This document shows, in pieces, positions 1,830 to 8,305 of a stretch of DNA of 64,000 bases. The stretch spans positions 124,001-188,000 of the forward strand of contig NZ_JAJEWK010000011.1 in assembly GCF_020687745.1 (NCBI RefSeq), in the 5' to 3' direction. Under the pieces are notes generated by a model. That model did no database searches, was not told the DNA's origin, and saw nothing but the letters and a program-made list of their open reading frames with translations. Positions within the stretch are counted from its first letter, which is position 1. Every line of letters starts with the position of its first letter. The stretch is from Chryseobacterium sp. MFBS3-17 (GTDB lineage Bacteria; Bacteroidota; Bacteroidia; Flavobacteriales; Weeksellaceae). The translations under genes and the position numbers were made by a program.

Positions 1830-3239
1830 TCAGGCTTTTTTGGAAGAACAGATAAACTGGGAAGTCGGAATTTTTTCGGTTTTCTTAATCCCGTTGAATC
1901 CGCCTCCTATTTCGGTGAAATTACGTACTCCTCTGGAATTCAGGATGCTGGCGGCTATCATACTGCGGTATCCGCCTGCACAGTGCAGGAAAAAATGTTC
2001 GGTATCATCTATTGTTCCGGCCCACTCAGCAATCTGATCAAGCGGCAGGCTATGGGCATTTTCTATATGTTCCGATTCAAATTCAGTGTCTTTACGTACA
2101 TCGATAATTTTGGTTCCCGGCTCAAATTTCCCGACAAACTCTTCGGGTGTAATGCGTTGAATTTCATCGGTTTCACCGCCAAAGTCGTTCCAGCTTTCAT
2201 ATCCGCCTTCCAGATAACCCAGCACCTGATCAAAACCTACACGGGATAACCGGGTGATGGCTTCTTCTTCCGTTCCAGGATCAGAAACAAGCAAAATGGG
2301 TTGTTGTACGTCCACAATCATGGCCCCTACCCATGGGGCAAAATCACCCTTCAATCCTATATTTACCGAGTTGGGCACAAATCCTTTATGAAAATCTGCT
2401 GCGCTCCGGGTGTCCAGAATCAGGGCGTTGGTATCTTCTGCAGTCTGTTCGAAATCAGATGCTGGAACCGGATTGAGGCCTTTCTGAAGTACCTGGTCAA
2501 AACTGTCATAACCGCCTTTGTTCATGGCCACATTCATTCCGAAGTATTTCGGCGGTGCAGAAAGTCCGTCCAGTACAGCTTCTATAAATGCTTCACGGTT
2601 AGGCTGATTGAGGGCATAATTGGTGCGCTTCTGATTTCCGAGGGTGTCCACAGTTTCCTTCTGCATATTCTTTCCGCAGGCAGATCCGGCACCATGAGCG
2701 GGATATACGGTAATGTCATCTGCCAGCGGCATAATCTTCGCCTGGAGGCTGTCATACAGCATTCCTGCCAGGTCTTCCTGAGTCATGCTGGCAGCTTTCT
2801 GAGCAAGATCCGGACGGCCTACATCTCCCAGAAACAGAGTGTCTCCTGAGAAAATGGCGGTTTCTTTTCCGTTTTCGTCAATCAGCAGGTAGGTAGAACT
2901 TTCCAGCGTGTGACCCGGTGTATGCAGTACTTTAATTTTTATTTTTCCAATTTCGAAAATCTGATTATCAGTAGCCGTGATGGCCTCAAAAGCAGGCTCG
3001 GCAGTGGGTCCGTACACAATGGGTGCACCGGTTTTCTTGCTGAGGTCCAGATGTCCCGAAACAAAATCTGCATGGAAATGCGTTTCGAAGATATATTTCA
3101 GGGTTACACCATCCTGTTCCAAACGGTTCAGGTAGGGCTGGACTTCGCGCAGCGGATCTATAATGGCAGCTTCACCATCAGAGACTATATAGTATGCACC
3201 CTGTGCCAGACATCCGGTATATATTTGTTCTACTTTCAT
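1830..3239 (-). CDS. CstB-like persulfide dioxygenase-rhodanese fusion
   Basis: About 469 residues in three domains, the layout of Staphylococcus CstB: an N-terminal metallo-beta-lactamase-fold persulfide dioxygenase (THFHADFVSGH at about 53-63, then HTPGHT and FSGDTLFLGDVGR), a middle rhodanese without catalytic Cys (LLVSDPG where the Cys would be), and a C-terminal rhodanese with Cys about 420 (HCAGGYRS). Such enzymes oxidise low-molecular-weight persulfides to thiosulfate or sulfite and protect from sulfide stress. The open frame extends 8 codons upstream, but homologues begin MKVEQIYTG, giving the start at 3239. The adjacent TauE/SafE permease fits export of the sulfite or thiosulfate produced. 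Acts in the cytoplasm. Confidence 0.88.
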   Translation of the reverse strand: MKVEQIYTGCLAQGAYYIVSDGEAAIIDPLREVQPYLNRLEQDGVTLKYIFETHFHADFVSGHLDLSKKTGAPIVYGPTAEPAFEAITATDNQIFEIGKIKIKVLHTPGHTLESSTYLLIDENGKETAIFSGDTLFLGDVGRPDLAQKAASMTQEDLAGMLYDSLQAKIMPLADDITVYPAHGAGSACGKNMQKETVDTLGNQKRTNYALNQPNREAFIEAVLDGLSAPPKYFGMNVAMNKGGYDSFDQVLQKGLNPVPASDFEQTAEDTNALILDTRSAADFHKGFVPNSVNIGLKGDFAPWVGAMIVDVQQPILLVSDPGTEEEAITRLSRVGFDQVLGYLEGGYESWNDFGGETDEIQRITPEEFVGKFEPGTKIIDVRKDTEFESEHIENAHSLPLDQIAEWAGTIDDTEHFFLHCAGGYRSMIAASILNSRGVRNFTEIGGGFNGIKKTEKIPTSQFICSSKKA

Positions 3240-3317
3240 ATCATGTTCGTTTTTTTGGTTCAATGCAAATTTCGGTTTATTTATTGGATTGCGATGTGAT
3301 GAATGTCAGTTTTAACG

Positions 3318-3348
3318 ATTGATAACATCAATGATTATGATGATTGAT
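3318..3348. promoter_or_regulatory. Clustered ATTGAT/ATCAAT half-sites upstream of cstB-like gene
   Basis: Three six-base half-sites in alternating orientation: ATTGAT (3318-3323), ATCAAT (3327-3332) and ATTGAT (3343-3348). The first pair forms a 6-3-6 palindrome resembling a Crp/FNR-type box (TTGAT-N3-ATCAA; FNR itself has N4). They lie in the 143-base gap between the permease and the persulfide dioxygenase genes, about 80-110 bases before the latter's start. No clear TAnnTTTG promoter is visible here. The regulator is unknown. Confidence 0.4.
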
Positions 3349-3382
3349 TTTTGCTTTTGTCTGATTGTCAAATGTTTGTTTG

Positions 3383-4183
3383 TTACATCACCTGCTTCAC
3401 CAGCAGCTCATTCAGGATGATGAAGATGGCCATGCTGAGTACAAACCATCCGAATACAGGCCTCAGTTTCCGGCCGGCAATCTTGCGGGAAATGCGTACG
3501 CCAATGAGAATTCCGATGACGGAAAGTGCCGTAAAAGACAGCAGAAAAACCCAGTTGACATCTACCTTGTCCAGTGAGGAAATAAATCCGATGAGTGAAT
3601 TGACTGAAATAATCACCAGTGACGTGGCCACCGCCTGTTTCATAGACACCCGGAGCAGCATCACGAGAGCCGGCACAATCAGGAATCCGCCGCCGGCACC
3701 TATGAACCCGGTTACAATGCCTACCAGCAATCCCTGGGATACCAAAAGAGTGTAGTTCACTTCCTCTGATTTCGGAATCCGCTGCCGGTCTATTTTTTTA
3801 ATCATTTTGAAAGATGAAACCAGCATCAGAATGGCAAACAGTACCAGGATGAACATATCCTTGGTAAGGGTGATGCCCCAGCGGTTAATGATGTATTCCG
3901 GCAAATGCGGCAGTACCACACGCCTGGAAAACAAAATCCCGGCCACCGAAGGGAGTCCGAAGAGGAAAGCGTTTTTAAAGTGAACAATCCCCTGGCGAAT
4001 GTACCCCACGGAACCCACCGAGCTGGTGACTCCCACTACAAAAAGTGACAGCGTGGTCGCCGTCATGGCATCAATCCCGAAGATATAAGCGAATACCGGA
4101 ACGCTCAGGATGCTTCCGCCCCCACCAATGAGTCCCATGACGAACCCGATGATGATGGCAAAAAAATATCCGAGAAATTCCAT
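3383..4183 (-). CDS. TauE/SafE family anion permease
   Basis: A 266-residue polytopic inner-membrane protein with the two-repeat TauE/SafE pattern: GLIGGGGSILSVPVFAY near residue 17 and its second-half counterpart GFIGAGGGFLIVPALVML. About eight hydrophobic segments are visible. Family members export sulfite, sulfoacetate or related sulfur anions. Located directly upstream of the CstB-like gene on the same strand, as in staphylococcal cst operons, so sulfite or thiosulfate efflux is the likely job. The substrate is inferred. Confidence 0.87.
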   Translation of the reverse strand: MEFLGYFFAIIIGFVMGLIGGGGSILSVPVFAYIFGIDAMTATTLSLFVVGVTSSVGSVGYIRQGIVHFKNAFLFGLPSVAGILFSRRVVLPHLPEYIINRWGITLTKDMFILVLFAILMLVSSFKMIKKIDRQRIPKSEEVNYTLLVSQGLLVGIVTGFIGAGGGFLIVPALVMLLRVSMKQAVATSLVIISVNSLIGFISSLDKVDVNWVFLLSFTALSVIGILIGVRISRKIAGRKLRPVFGWFVLSMAIFIILNELLVKQVM

Positions 4184-4208
4184 ACCGGTGCTCTACTTGG
4201 TTTAGTGA

Positions 4209-4652
4209 TTAATGAATAGCGGTGATGTTGATGGTTTTGTTGCCCATTTCTAAAGCATCGCCCTCTTTTTTGCCTTTTATTTTACCGTAAATAGGTGCCT
4301 CCGGTGAAATACAGAACACATCTTTTCCCTGAAATTTAAAAGCTGGCAATGCTACCCCCAGAAAGAAATAATTCTGGTCGGTTTCTATCAGTGCGCCCTG
4401 TTCTGCTTCGGTGTGGCTTTTATCTTTTTCTGCCAGCACAAAAAGAAGGTCGTTTTTTTCCTTACTCAGCATTTTTTCAAACCGCAACTGCATGTCTTTG
4501 GCCTCAGTTTGCCGGGCATAATCATCCGGGTCAGAGGTGTCGTCCTCATCCATATCAGACTCTTTTTTATACAATTCCACAGAGTGTTGCAGGTTGTCAA
4601 TGACTTTATATTGTTCTTCTAAAATTTTACTTAAAATTTCGGTTCTTATCAT
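4209..4652 (-). CDS. GreA/GreB-like transcription factor
   Basis: About 147 residues: an N-terminal coiled coil broken by a strongly acidic turn (DMDEDDTSDPDDYARQTE, about residues 34-51), then a compact C-terminal domain with the GreA/GreB FKBP-like pattern (FFLGVALP...ISPEAPIYGKIKGKKEGD). Such proteins enter the RNA polymerase secondary channel; an acidic coiled-coil tip is what rescues backtracked polymerase in GreA. It is shorter and more divergent than true GreA, so it is probably an accessory Gre-like factor. I chose the ATG at 4652 (MIRTEILSKIL) because a -7 element overlaps the longer frame. Confidence 0.7.
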   Translation of the reverse strand: MIRTEILSKILEEQYKVIDNLQHSVELYKKESDMDEDDTSDPDDYARQTEAKDMQLRFEKMLSKEKNDLLFVLAEKDKSHTEAEQGALIETDQNYFFLGVALPAFKFQGKDVFCISPEAPIYGKIKGKKEGDALEMGNKTINITAIH

Positions 4653-4673
4653 GATTGTAAGTTTATCGGGTAT

Positions 4674-4681
4674 CAAATTTA
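4674..4681 (-). promoter_or_regulatory. -7 element of Gre-like gene
   Basis: TAAATTTG on the minus strand, an exact match to the Bacteroidetes -7 consensus TAnnTTTG, 21 bases before the chosen start at 4652. No good TTTG -33 box is seen at the right distance, so this is half a promoter. Confidence 0.5.
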
Positions 4682-4832: not shown

Positions 4833-6821
4833 TTAATAGTCAAACTGAAGGTGAATAAAGAAATTTCGCCCGGGTCTTGGGATATGGTTCCAGTCTGCAT
4901 AAGTGGTATAGTGCCGGTCCAAAAGGTTTTCCACGCCGGTTTTTAACTGCCATTTTCCATTTCCGCTGCCGAACGTATATCCTGCGGCAGCATTCAGCAG
5001 AAAATACCCGGAATTCGGAAGTTCTCCCTGTTCGGCACTGTAGTTTCGGTGTTTACTGTTTCCTGATGCAGAAACCTCAGCAGTCATTTTTTTTAAGGTG
5101 TATCTGAGTTTCGAAGTATATGCAAACGGACTGATGTACGGCAGGTTCTTTTGGGCAACATCCTTACCCCGGGCATAAACAAGCCCGACATGCCACTGCA
5201 GAGCCGGCCACAGTTTCCATTCTGATTCATAACTGACATTCAGAATCCTGGCATGAGGAAGCGCACTGTAAATCTTCACGCCATGTGCTCCTATGGTCAT
5301 GGGTGATAAATCCGGATTGATTTTGCCGGTGATAAAATTTGAAATATGAAAGAACGTACCGTTTATTCTGGCTGAAAACTCATCAGTTTTGTATTGCAGG
5401 AATGCATTGAGTTCGGCAGAAGTTTCGTTTTTGAGGTCCGGATTTCCAATATAATCATAATTCTCCGCACTGTTAAACAAATAAAATCCATAACCTTCGG
5501 ATACAGAGGGGGCGCGGTCTCCGTATCCGGCTCCAATGCCATAGGAAAACCGGCGGATACGGTTGCTGTACTGCGCTGATGCGCTTTTTACAAACCTGTT
5601 CTGGCCGTCGGTCATCTCGGGATAAAAAATCTGGAGACTGTTCAGGCCTTCCTCCCGGGCTATGCTGTTGCGGTGAAATCCGATGGCTACCGAAAGTTTT
5701 AGTTGATTGTCCGGTCTCAGCGAGATGCGGTCTTCCAGATACAGGCCCTGGTACAGGGTGCGGACATCCGGCCAGGTGTACATGAACATCAGATGCTCTT
5801 CCGGATTCTCCGGATACATGGTCATTTCTGCCAGCGACTGGTTATAGTATCCGTTCAGGTTAACTGAGATTTGATGTGAATGCCGGATTGCAGATGCTTT
5901 GGAGTAATAACCGTACGTTTTACTCCAGCCGGGCATATCCATGTGTATGGGAACATTCGGCCTTTTGGTATCGTCCATGCGGTGGGTAATCGTGTTGTAA
6001 TACAATTTGGTTTCCCACTCCTTTAGGGAAGCTTGCTCTGGTTGATAAAGATATTTCAGAGAAGCAATGGTGGCTTCTGCCAGAGAAACATCCATGGGAA
6101 GGGCAGGGTAGCCCACGTCATGAGCCTTGTCATAGATGACAGAGGTTTCCAGGGTGTAGTGTTCTTTCACGAGGAGGCCGGCAGTACCGGAGACATTCAA
6201 TTTGCTGAACTGAGAAAAGTCCACTTCTTGACCGCCACCGGATTTGTAATTTTCTGCGTCGCGGTTCATAAAATCAATCGAAGTGTACAGTTTCGGATTT
6301 CTATAATGTACTGATGCGCCGAATATTTTCTGCTGGTTCACACTTTCATATCCGGAGTGAATGCCATATTTCCAACGCTTCTCACCGAAGTTTCCGGTTT
6401 TGCGCTTCAGGTCTATCGCTCCACCGATGGTCGAGCCGTGGCAGGAACCTGATTGCCCGGAAGAAATTTCAGCAGCAGCGAGGTTAGAAACTTCCACGTA
6501 GGAGGTTATGGGATCCATTTTATCTGTGCACGCCCCGAAAATTCGCATGCCATCAATGGTGAGGACGGTTCTTTCGGTACTCATATTGTTGATGAGCGGT
6601 TCCCATGCATAAGCACCGCGTTTCAGCATTTGTACCTGTGCAGATTGCTGCAGGTATTCGTCTATGGAACTCAGAGGCTTTGCCTGGCGGGATCCGGGAT
6701 CTCCGTGACCTATAATGATCACTTCCTGAATCATTGCATGTCCCGTACTGTCCCCAGGGTGATGTTGTGCAGGCGATGTGCCCGTGGCCAGCAGCATTAC
6801 GGGAATTATTATTTTTTTCAT
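4833..6821 (-). CDS. TonB-dependent receptor, OprC-like (probable copper uptake)
   Basis: A 662-residue outer-membrane receptor: signal peptide (1-19), TonB-box region and plug (about 30-150), then a beta-barrel ending in aromatic FDY. The plug carries GACTDKMDPITSY with Cys98 and Met102, matching the CxxxM motif that binds copper in OprC/NosA receptors; another Cys sits in SGSCHGST near 127. It lacks the long N-terminal carboxypeptidase-like domain of SusC proteins. It is last in a minus-strand group after a Met/His-rich lipoprotein and a Cys-rich small protein, consistent with copper import or sensing. Substrate inferred from the motif. Confidence 0.8.
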   Translation of the reverse strand: MKKIIIPVMLLATGTSPAQHHPGDSTGHAMIQEVIIIGHGDPGSRQAKPLSSIDEYLQQSAQVQMLKRGAYAWEPLINNMSTERTVLTIDGMRIFGACTDKMDPITSYVEVSNLAAAEISSGQSGSCHGSTIGGAIDLKRKTGNFGEKRWKYGIHSGYESVNQQKIFGASVHYRNPKLYTSIDFMNRDAENYKSGGGQEVDFSQFSKLNVSGTAGLLVKEHYTLETSVIYDKAHDVGYPALPMDVSLAEATIASLKYLYQPEQASLKEWETKLYYNTITHRMDDTKRPNVPIHMDMPGWSKTYGYYSKASAIRHSHQISVNLNGYYNQSLAEMTMYPENPEEHLMFMYTWPDVRTLYQGLYLEDRISLRPDNQLKLSVAIGFHRNSIAREEGLNSLQIFYPEMTDGQNRFVKSASAQYSNRIRRFSYGIGAGYGDRAPSVSEGYGFYLFNSAENYDYIGNPDLKNETSAELNAFLQYKTDEFSARINGTFFHISNFITGKINPDLSPMTIGAHGVKIYSALPHARILNVSYESEWKLWPALQWHVGLVYARGKDVAQKNLPYISPFAYTSKLRYTLKKMTAEVSASGNSKHRNYSAEQGELPNSGYFLLNAAAGYTFGSGNGKWQLKTGVENLLDRHYTTYADWNHIPRPGRNFFIHLQFDY

Positions 6822-6877
6822 GTAAAGGGAGGTTTAAATGAACCGGGCGTGATCTGTAGATGCCACCCGGTCGGTAA

Positions 6878-7726
6878 TTAAAATTCCAGTTCAAAAAATA
6901 AACTGCTTTCCGGGTGGATGTCAGTCACGGCTTCTCCTTTCAGAATGCTGCCGTCTGCTGCCAGTAATTGCAGGTTCAGTTTCCAGTAACCGGTCATGGT
7001 AAGTGACACTTTACCCTGATAAAAACCATTGGTCTGGCTTTGTATGGCATCTTCATTATTTGGCGAACTGTGATTGCCCATTCCCGGCATGCGCGGATCC
7101 AGTTTTAGTTTCAATCCGTTGGCCACAGGAAATGTCATCATATCCTGCATTTTCCAGATGCCTACAGTCCAGTTGTTGATGGCTACTTTTGGCGATGATG
7201 GCTCTATGTGGGCAATGACATAGCGCTGTCCATCTGCACCAAGTACCGCATTTACATTTTTGCGCTGTACAGGCTGTACGGTAATGGGTGCTGTGGCCGT
7301 ATAAGCTACACCATTAAGGACATAATCAAGCGTCAGATCCCAGTATTCTGTATTGTTTTGGGGCATCTGAAACACGATATATCCGTGGTATAGCGAGGTG
7401 GCAGAAGGAGTAATGGCAGACCGCGGGCAGGAATGTGTCATGGAGGTCATGTGCATGCGGGGGGTCCACGTGATGTTTGCATTGGCCTCATATTGATTAT
7501 TGCTGAGGTTCCTGATGCGCAGCGTAATGTCATTATATCCGGTCTGGAAAGTGCCGCGTACGGTATACAGTTCTATGGCATGTGTACTGTTGGTGATTTC
7601 CTGGACTTTTAGCAGATTCTGTAAGCCGTTGGTCTCGGGAATTTTGGGGTCTTCGGTGCTGCGACAGGACAGCATGATGGCGGACATGACGATGAGCGCC
7701 ATGAATATTTTAAAAGAAAATTTCAT
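6878..7726 (-). CDS. Met/His-rich lipoprotein, tandem FixH/YtkA-like domains
   Basis: A 282-residue lipoprotein with lipobox MLSC (Cys21), so anchored on the periplasmic side or at the outer membrane. Two Ig-like halves follow, about 40-160 and 165-282. Each contains a metal-type patch: TPRMHMTSMTHSCP in the first and DPRMPGMGNHSSPN in the second. The repeated pattern resembles FixH/YtkA-like domains, which often accompany copper proteins. It lies between the Cys-rich protein gene and the OprC-like receptor gene with short gaps. A copper-binding or copper-handing role is my inference. Confidence 0.65.
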   Translation of the reverse strand: MKFSFKIFMALIVMSAIMLSCRSTEDPKIPETNGLQNLLKVQEITNSTHAIELYTVRGTFQTGYNDITLRIRNLSNNQYEANANITWTPRMHMTSMTHSCPRSAITPSATSLYHGYIVFQMPQNNTEYWDLTLDYVLNGVAYTATAPITVQPVQRKNVNAVLGADGQRYVIAHIEPSSPKVAINNWTVGIWKMQDMMTFPVANGLKLKLDPRMPGMGNHSSPNNEDAIQSQTNGFYQGKVSLTMTGYWKLNLQLLAADGSILKGEAVTDIHPESSLFFELEF

Positions 7727-7805
7727 TTTGAATAAAATTTAAGGGGTAAAATTGGGTTCTGAACAGATGAATGTCCGGAACCTTTGAAATAAATCCGAAA
7801 AGAGT

Positions 7806-8174
7806 TTACTTTTCAATCTTTGGCGGGTGCGGCAATATACGGTGATAGCCTTTGAGGGTATCAGCGGTTTTGTGGAGGACAAGATCTTCACTTTTTCGGT
7901 AAACAACCGCATTCTTTAGTGGAAATTCAACTGCAGCGAGTGGAAAAATGTGAAACTCAAAATGCTTTTTGATGACCTGTACCGGTGCTGAACTGTTTTC
8001 ATTGACTTTTTTTACCTCACACTTGCCGTGGCATTCCAGTTCGGGATTTGCAGTATTGATGCAGTGTTTTTCGTAAAAATTCCGGTTCAGATAATAGTCT
8101 GCCAGTATCAGCGTGTTCTGGAAACTTACCAGAAAAACAAGCGTGGACAGTATACTGAGCAGAATGGTTTTCAT
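7806..8174 (-). CDS. Small secreted Cys-rich protein
   Basis: About 122 residues. It opens with a hydrophobic segment (MKTILLSILSTLVFLVSF) that is a signal peptide or anchor, followed by a conserved-looking motif with three cysteines, CINTANPELECHGKC (about residues 38-52), and ends in a His/Pro-rich tail (YHRILPHPP). The Cys/His content and position ahead of the lipoprotein and OprC-like receptor suggest metal handling, perhaps copper. I recognise no named family. The frame extends upstream from a TTG, but the ATG at 8174 puts the signal peptide at the N-terminus. Confidence 0.65.
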   Translation of the reverse strand: MKTILLSILSTLVFLVSFQNTLILADYYLNRNFYEKHCINTANPELECHGKCEVKKVNENSSAPVQVIKKHFEFHIFPLAAVEFPLKNAVVYRKSEDLVLHKTADTLKGYHRILPHPPKIEK

Positions 8175-8183
8175 TTTATGAAT

Positions 8184-8191
8184 CAAATTTA
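8184..8191 (-). promoter_or_regulatory. -7 element of copper-module operon
   Basis: TAAATTTG on the minus strand, 9 bases before the ATG at 8174. Transcription would begin almost at the start codon, so the mRNA would be nearly leaderless. No clear -33 box. Confidence 0.45.
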
Positions 8192-8305
8192 AGACTTTTT
8201 AGTTTTAAATAAAAATGATTATAATCAGTAGATTCATCTGTTTTCCTGTTCCACACAGATTCTCGTGATTTTTTTTATCTTTAGCTCGTAAAACAGAAAA
8301 CACTC

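Follow-up and report, generated by a model that had tools for sequence, protein, structure and literature searches.

A candidate outer-membrane copper-acquisition operon that appears to belong to the nos regulon of Chryseobacterium sp. MFBS3-17 and other Bacteroidota

Bacteria with clade II NosZ, a group in which Bacteroidota are numerous, form an important biological sink of nitrous oxide (N2O), and NosZ, the N2O reductase, needs many copper ions. To our knowledge, outer-membrane copper acquisition in these organisms has been little described. A three-gene locus of Chryseobacterium sp. MFBS3-17 (Weeksellaceae) raises the question of what its products take up and which enzyme they serve. The locus lies in a window of 64,000 nucleotides, the whole stretch analyzed here (contig NZ_JAJEWK010000011.1, positions 124,001 to 188,000 of the forward strand; coordinates below are those of the window), and encodes a TonB-dependent receptor, a lipoprotein (LP), and a small Cys protein (SML). 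The favored answer, to which a probability of about 0.78 is assigned, is that this module is an operon of the nos regulon that acquires copper at the outer membrane under the control of a Crp/Fnr-type activator, and in which copper would travel from LP to the receptor and then to SML.

The three genes are read from the minus strand in the order SML (7806..8174; 122 amino acids from its ATG), LP (6878..7726; 282 amino acids), and receptor (4833..6821; 662 amino acids), with intergenic gaps of 79 and 56 bases, and as judged from this layout they form one operon. The initial annotation had placed them in a single minus-strand group behind a -7 box, and all of the open reading frames were located along with the box (TAAATTTG, 8191-8184, minus strand), which lies just upstream of the SML start codon. 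This start is most likely the ATG at 8174, as opposed to the TTG at 8186 given in the program-made list of open reading frames. Scans for sigma-70 promoters and terminators revealed no clear excess over shuffled sequences. The genes stay together elsewhere in the Bacteroidetes. All three neighbor one another on the same strand in 39 of 40 loci from Weeksellaceae, and for the named GTDB loci the count is 78 of 80; the three loci that lack the full trio, one in the former set and two in the latter, are all cut by contig ends. The order of receptor and LP is swapped in two Weeksellaceae loci. The linkage check named in the initial annotation thus gave a positive result. LP itself is encoded by 47 of 197 genomes of the family and 36 of 296 genomes of the phylum.

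The receptor is OprC-like. A profile of 12 receptor relatives aligned over nearly the full length of Pseudomonas aeruginosa OprC (E 4.5e-31), for which the copper ligands are C143, M147, H323, and M325 (PMC8610252). Receptor residues C98-x3-M102 (6516..6530) and H280-x-M282 (5976..5984, both minus strand) occupy the aligned positions, C98 and M102 at those of C143 and M147 and H280 and M282 at those of H323 and M325, yielding a complete CxxxM-HxM site that is invariant in 40-41 of 41 homologues. The Cys98/Met102 pair had been identified correctly in the initial annotation, and the histidine and methionine that complete the site were found in addition. The mapping of the OprC methionine track was confined to M286, M339, and M341, which align with M243 (6093..6095) and with M294 and M296 (5934..5942, all minus strand), and these residues are likewise invariant in 40-41 of the 41 homologues. 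Full-length homology, the CxxxM-HxM site, and the three track methionines are shared with OprC (PA3790) and with NosA of P. stutzeri, a protein expressed anaerobically and proposed, though not without dispute, to serve NosZ (PMC8610252). In P. aeruginosa, oprC shares an operon with the FoxB-like gene PA3789, whereas the receptor described here has LP and SML as companions. A Bacteroidota relative of OprC with CxxxM-HxM, BZARG_1494 of Bizionia argentinensis, has been proposed to function in copper uptake; the available part of that account describes no lipoprotein partner, small Cys protein, nos link, or regulatory box (PMC11213822).

LP bears a lipobox at its N-terminus (SC21), and its AlphaFold model contains two domains (predicted local distance difference test score, pLDDT, 89.5), which the strand pattern of the model suggests to be beta-sandwiches. 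Domain 2 is YtkA-like: PF13115 was matched by 18 of 20 members at E<=0.01 (best 8.6e-12), the MFBS3-17 protein itself scoring 22.7 bits against a gathering cut-off of 25.9. Domain 1 resembles domain 2 (hhalign probability 82, E 1e-5). The earlier description of LP as a tandem of FixH/YtkA-like domains is retained in its YtkA-like part; FixH yielded no Pfam match at E<=1, and this relationship was rejected. Domain 2 also matched Helicobacter pylori CrdA (9ll2), both by profile (E 4e-4) and by fold (probability 1.00; template modelling (TM) score to the target, 0.66). Both of the predicted Met/His patches were present, at residues 87-101 (W87-TPRMHMTSMTHSCP101; WTPRMHMTSMTHSCP, 7424..7468, minus strand) and 210-224 (D210-PRMPGMGNHSSPNN224; DPRMPGMGNHSSPNN, 7055..7099, minus strand). 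In patch 2 (DPRMPGMGNH), the elements D-P-R-M-P-x-M and N-H-x-S were invariant, D-P-R-M-P-x-M and N-H also in a diverse set, and its MPGM (213-216) corresponds to the MXXMPGM copper loop common to CrdA, CopC, and PcoC (PMC9182242). Patch 1 (MHM-x2-M-x-HSCP, in domain 1) is kept in the nos-type group and largely lost in the MbnP/MbnH-type group. CrdA differs from LP in being a single-domain periplasmic protein, whereas LP is a two-domain lipoprotein paired with an importer and has an extra conserved His in GNH.

LP may face either the periplasm or the cell exterior. If it faces the periplasm, as the relay of the initial annotation implies, it would act as a chaperone to which the receptor delivers copper, and this alternative stands at somewhat below even odds: among proteins of solved structure its closest relative, CrdA, binds copper in the periplasm (PMC9182242), and the sequence behind the lipid-bearing Cys of the MFBS3-17 protein (CRSTEDP) holds only two acidic residues, at +5/+6, a weak likeness to a surface-export signal. 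In Bacteroidetes, that signal (lipoprotein export signal, LES) consists of acidic residues close after the Cys, behind a polar or basic residue (PMC5080379). Acidic residues are enriched at about +4 to +7 among 133 LP homologues, with a share of 52-59% from +4 through +6; neighboring lipoproteins, a small and unselected control set, have 20-41%. The resemblance to the signal suggests that LP may capture copper outside the cell instead of taking it over on the periplasmic side.

SML was annotated as a small secreted protein with a C-x10-C-x3-C motif. The actual spacing is C38-x9-C48-x3-C52 (CINTANPELECHGKC, 8019..8063, minus strand), and Cx9Cx3C together with a C-terminal PP is invariant across the SML alignments, whose members had no convincing family match in Pfam or NCBIfam. 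The predicted structure consists of one N-terminal helix, with low confidence beyond it (predicted TM score, pTM, 0.29). From this model, a membrane anchor is judged more likely than free secretion. SML occurs in 174 of 197 family genomes, versus 47 with LP; a private partnership with LP was rejected on this count, and SML is therefore regarded as a more general component. In five Kaistella genomes that have nosZ and lack LP, a second OprC-like receptor with CxxxM and HxM is preceded by an SML homologue and is divergent from nosZ or the nos operon, and three of these loci have, on the side of SML and the receptor, a Crp/Fnr-type box at 33 bp. In most Kaistella with nos genes, SML is thus paired with one of the two OprC-like receptors. 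The original view of the three genes as an outer-membrane-to-periplasm copper relay is narrowed, since SML extends beyond the module and also accompanies a receptor in the absence of LP. The copper-uptake role is well supported by the OprC ligand set, the CrdA-like domain of LP, and the copper genes that neighbor the module, which include nos, nirK-SCO, cupredoxin, and MbnP/MbnH genes. In ten inspected distant loci, the place of SML directly upstream of LP is taken by a Cys/His-rich protein of ~150 amino acids with an N-terminal hydrophobic stretch, apparently unrelated to SML; one scanned member had no Pfam match.

A connection with N2O reduction is apparent from gene order. In four loci of distant Bacteroidota, the LP and receptor genes are inside or at the edge of the nos operon. 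In one of these (L187), the order is CytC-NosZ-u227-NosL-LP-receptor-NosD-NosF-NosY, and the NosZ protein is Sec-dependent and belongs to clade II. Genes of the nos cluster are present within about 8 kb of the module in 46 of 158 loci, and in 35 of the 80 named loci. The module of Flavobacterium is often divergent from nosZ or adjoins a Crp/Fnr gene together with nos genes.

The second connection is a regulatory box. ATGAYN4RTCAT has the shape of Crp/Fnr operators, and a perfect copy of this palindrome was present upstream of SML in 58 of 110 regions, versus 0.4% in shuffled sequences. Its center lies 33-35 bp from that of the -7 box, and of 73 non-redundant upstream regions, 42 had box and spacing together, a combination that no shuffled sequence showed. 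This distance would place the palindrome near -41.5, the position of a class II activator. The copy in front of the MFBS3-17 module (CTGATTATAATCAT, 8215..8228, minus strand) agrees with the palindrome at 9 of 10 positions and is 34 bp, center to center, from the -7 box; the nos operon of the same genome is preceded by the same box (ATGACTGTAGTCAT), also at 34 bp. With a stricter box plus the spacing, the MFBS3-17 genome contains about six sites, one of which is the module operon and one the nos operon. A Crp/Fnr gene adjoins nos (L218), and its product is the putative regulator of the module. Because the module appears to be part of the nos/denitrification regulon, its main control is predicted to be exerted by a Crp/Fnr-type regulator. 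The same box and spacing were also observed at L234 (G000:C4:198241), before a gene for a protein of at least 489 amino acids that begins MTHNFHIPVMGLAFTIDSP and is matched by no family of Pfam or NCBIfam; near the module, 16 loci encode a protein of similar appearance. A further protein of ~400 amino acids, of membrane type by eye and without a Pfam family, forms a pair with a Crp/Fnr gene in the neighborhood of nos or of the module (L218:1863-3074 and L108:5533-6765).

Co-occurrence provides a third connection. In tests that ignore phylogeny, nosZ was present in 37 of 47 family genomes with LP versus 27 of 150 others (p=4e-14), in 22 of 36 versus 78 of 260 genomes at the level of the phylum (p=3e-4), and, within Kaistella, in 24 of 24 versus 7 of 12 (p=0.002). 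Among genomes with nirK, the corresponding counts were 30/30 and 10/32. Considered as the main correlate of LP, nirK was rejected as weaker than nosZ.

Several observations weigh against a copper-acquisition operon of the nos regulon. The genomes compared are not phylogenetically independent, a problem that the within-genus test merely lessens. None of the Weeksellaceae module loci has nos genes within 8 kb, and in MFBS3-17 both nosZ and nirK are on contigs other than that of the module. In 10 of the 47 family genomes with LP, several of them in the MbnP/MbnH sub-group, nosZ is missing. Conversely, three genomes of the same genus possess nosZ without LP, SML, or an OprC-like receptor, and the module is therefore accessory, not required for nosZ. 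The receptor scored 98.9 bits against NCBIfam TIGR01778 (TonB-copper), far under the cut-off of 472, and is for this reason named OprC-like rather than a member of that equivalog. A PDB fold search with the whole of LP returned mostly generic immunoglobulin-like matches, with CrdA at rank 39; CrdA is regarded as the sole meaningful fold match, backed as it is by the independent profile match.

Some of these observations would be expected if the module served general copper uptake for all cuproenzymes, such as cbb3 oxidase, NirK, and SCO-dependent enzymes, the association with nos arising merely from the higher copper need of denitrifiers. Besides the family genomes just mentioned, nosZ is missing from 14 of the 36 LP-bearing genomes of the phylum; MbnP/MbnH and nirK-SCO genes adjoin the module in some loci; and among genomes with nosZ, those that also have nirK are enriched in LP (p=4e-4). 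However, there is no such excess with nirK among nosZ-negative genomes (0/10), and the position of the module within the nos operon of distant Bacteroidota and the promoter box held in common with nos also speak against this explanation, which is judged rather unlikely.

Import of a chelated form of copper (a chalkophore) or of another metal, with LP as the chelate-binding component, is improbable. A precedent exists in CrtA of Bordetella, a TonB-dependent importer of chelated copper with a link to respiratory oxidases (PMC12914433), and MbnP/MbnH genes neighbor a sub-group of module loci. Yet CrtA falls in a different cluster of receptors, in which Cys and Met are not conserved, and has a PepSY_TM protein as its usual partner, whereas the site for ionic copper of OprC is invariant in the receptor family examined here. 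MbnP and MbnH are known as methanobactin-associated copper proteins. Their genes follow the module in nine loci, of which the six from Weeksellaceae largely lack patch 1 of LP. Resistance by sequestration, suggested by the resistance determinant CrdA and its likeness to LP, is very improbable for an operon that encodes a TonB-dependent receptor, a class that imports, that has a regulatory box in common with nos, and that has no efflux genes among its recurrent neighbors.

For a copper-acquisition operon of the nos regulon, the following sequence of events can be proposed. A Crp/Fnr-type regulator, probably sensing low oxygen or nitrogen oxides, would activate the module together with the nos operon. 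LP, with its anchor in the outer membrane and probably at the cell surface, would bind copper through the patches MPGM-GNH and MHM-H before passing it to the receptor, which would trap the metal at C98/M102/H280/M282 and import it by TonB-driven transport. In the periplasm, membrane-anchored SML may take over or reduce the copper through Cx9Cx3C, from where it could proceed to NosL/NosDFY or SCO, for use in NosZ and NirK. The arrangement recalls SusC/SusD-type pairs, in which a TonB receptor and an adjacent outer-membrane lipoprotein of Bacteroidota act as partners (PMC7477175), although LP has no SusD family match and the ligand differs. More tentatively, and at something below an even chance, the module can be pictured as a copper-specific SusCD-like surface complex, in which the tandem CrdA-like LP caps and feeds the receptor, the Cx9Cx3C family of membrane-anchored proteins hands copper on, and the whole set is induced along with clade II N2O reductase as a copper supply line of the Bacteroidota N2O reducers' own.

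Parts of this scheme were already known, namely OprC and NosA, the contested idea that NosA serves NosZ, and the OprC-like receptor of Bizionia. In the open-licence literature, no description was found of LP, of the SML family, of their nos link in Bacteroidota, or of the shared box, and no paper was found there that combined YtkA, copper, and TonB-dependent. The operon supplies genes, ligand residues, a predicted operator, and knock-out targets for study of the copper supply of N2O reducers. It also revives the question of whether a NosA-type receptor serves NosZ, in a phylum in which the receptor gene is often inside or beside the nos cluster, and it draws attention to a widespread, unnamed family of small Cys proteins.

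Two further gene groups were observed in MFBS3-17. Elsewhere in the genome, an FGE-sulfatase-type gene and a gene for a SCO1/SenC copper chaperone come after nirK (L221:6208-8672). Downstream of the module, positions 1830-4676 of the window contain genes for a protein of rhodanese/beta-lactamase fold, a TauE/SafE protein, and a 155-amino-acid protein; in Kaistella-type genomes, this block is syntenic and accompanies the module.

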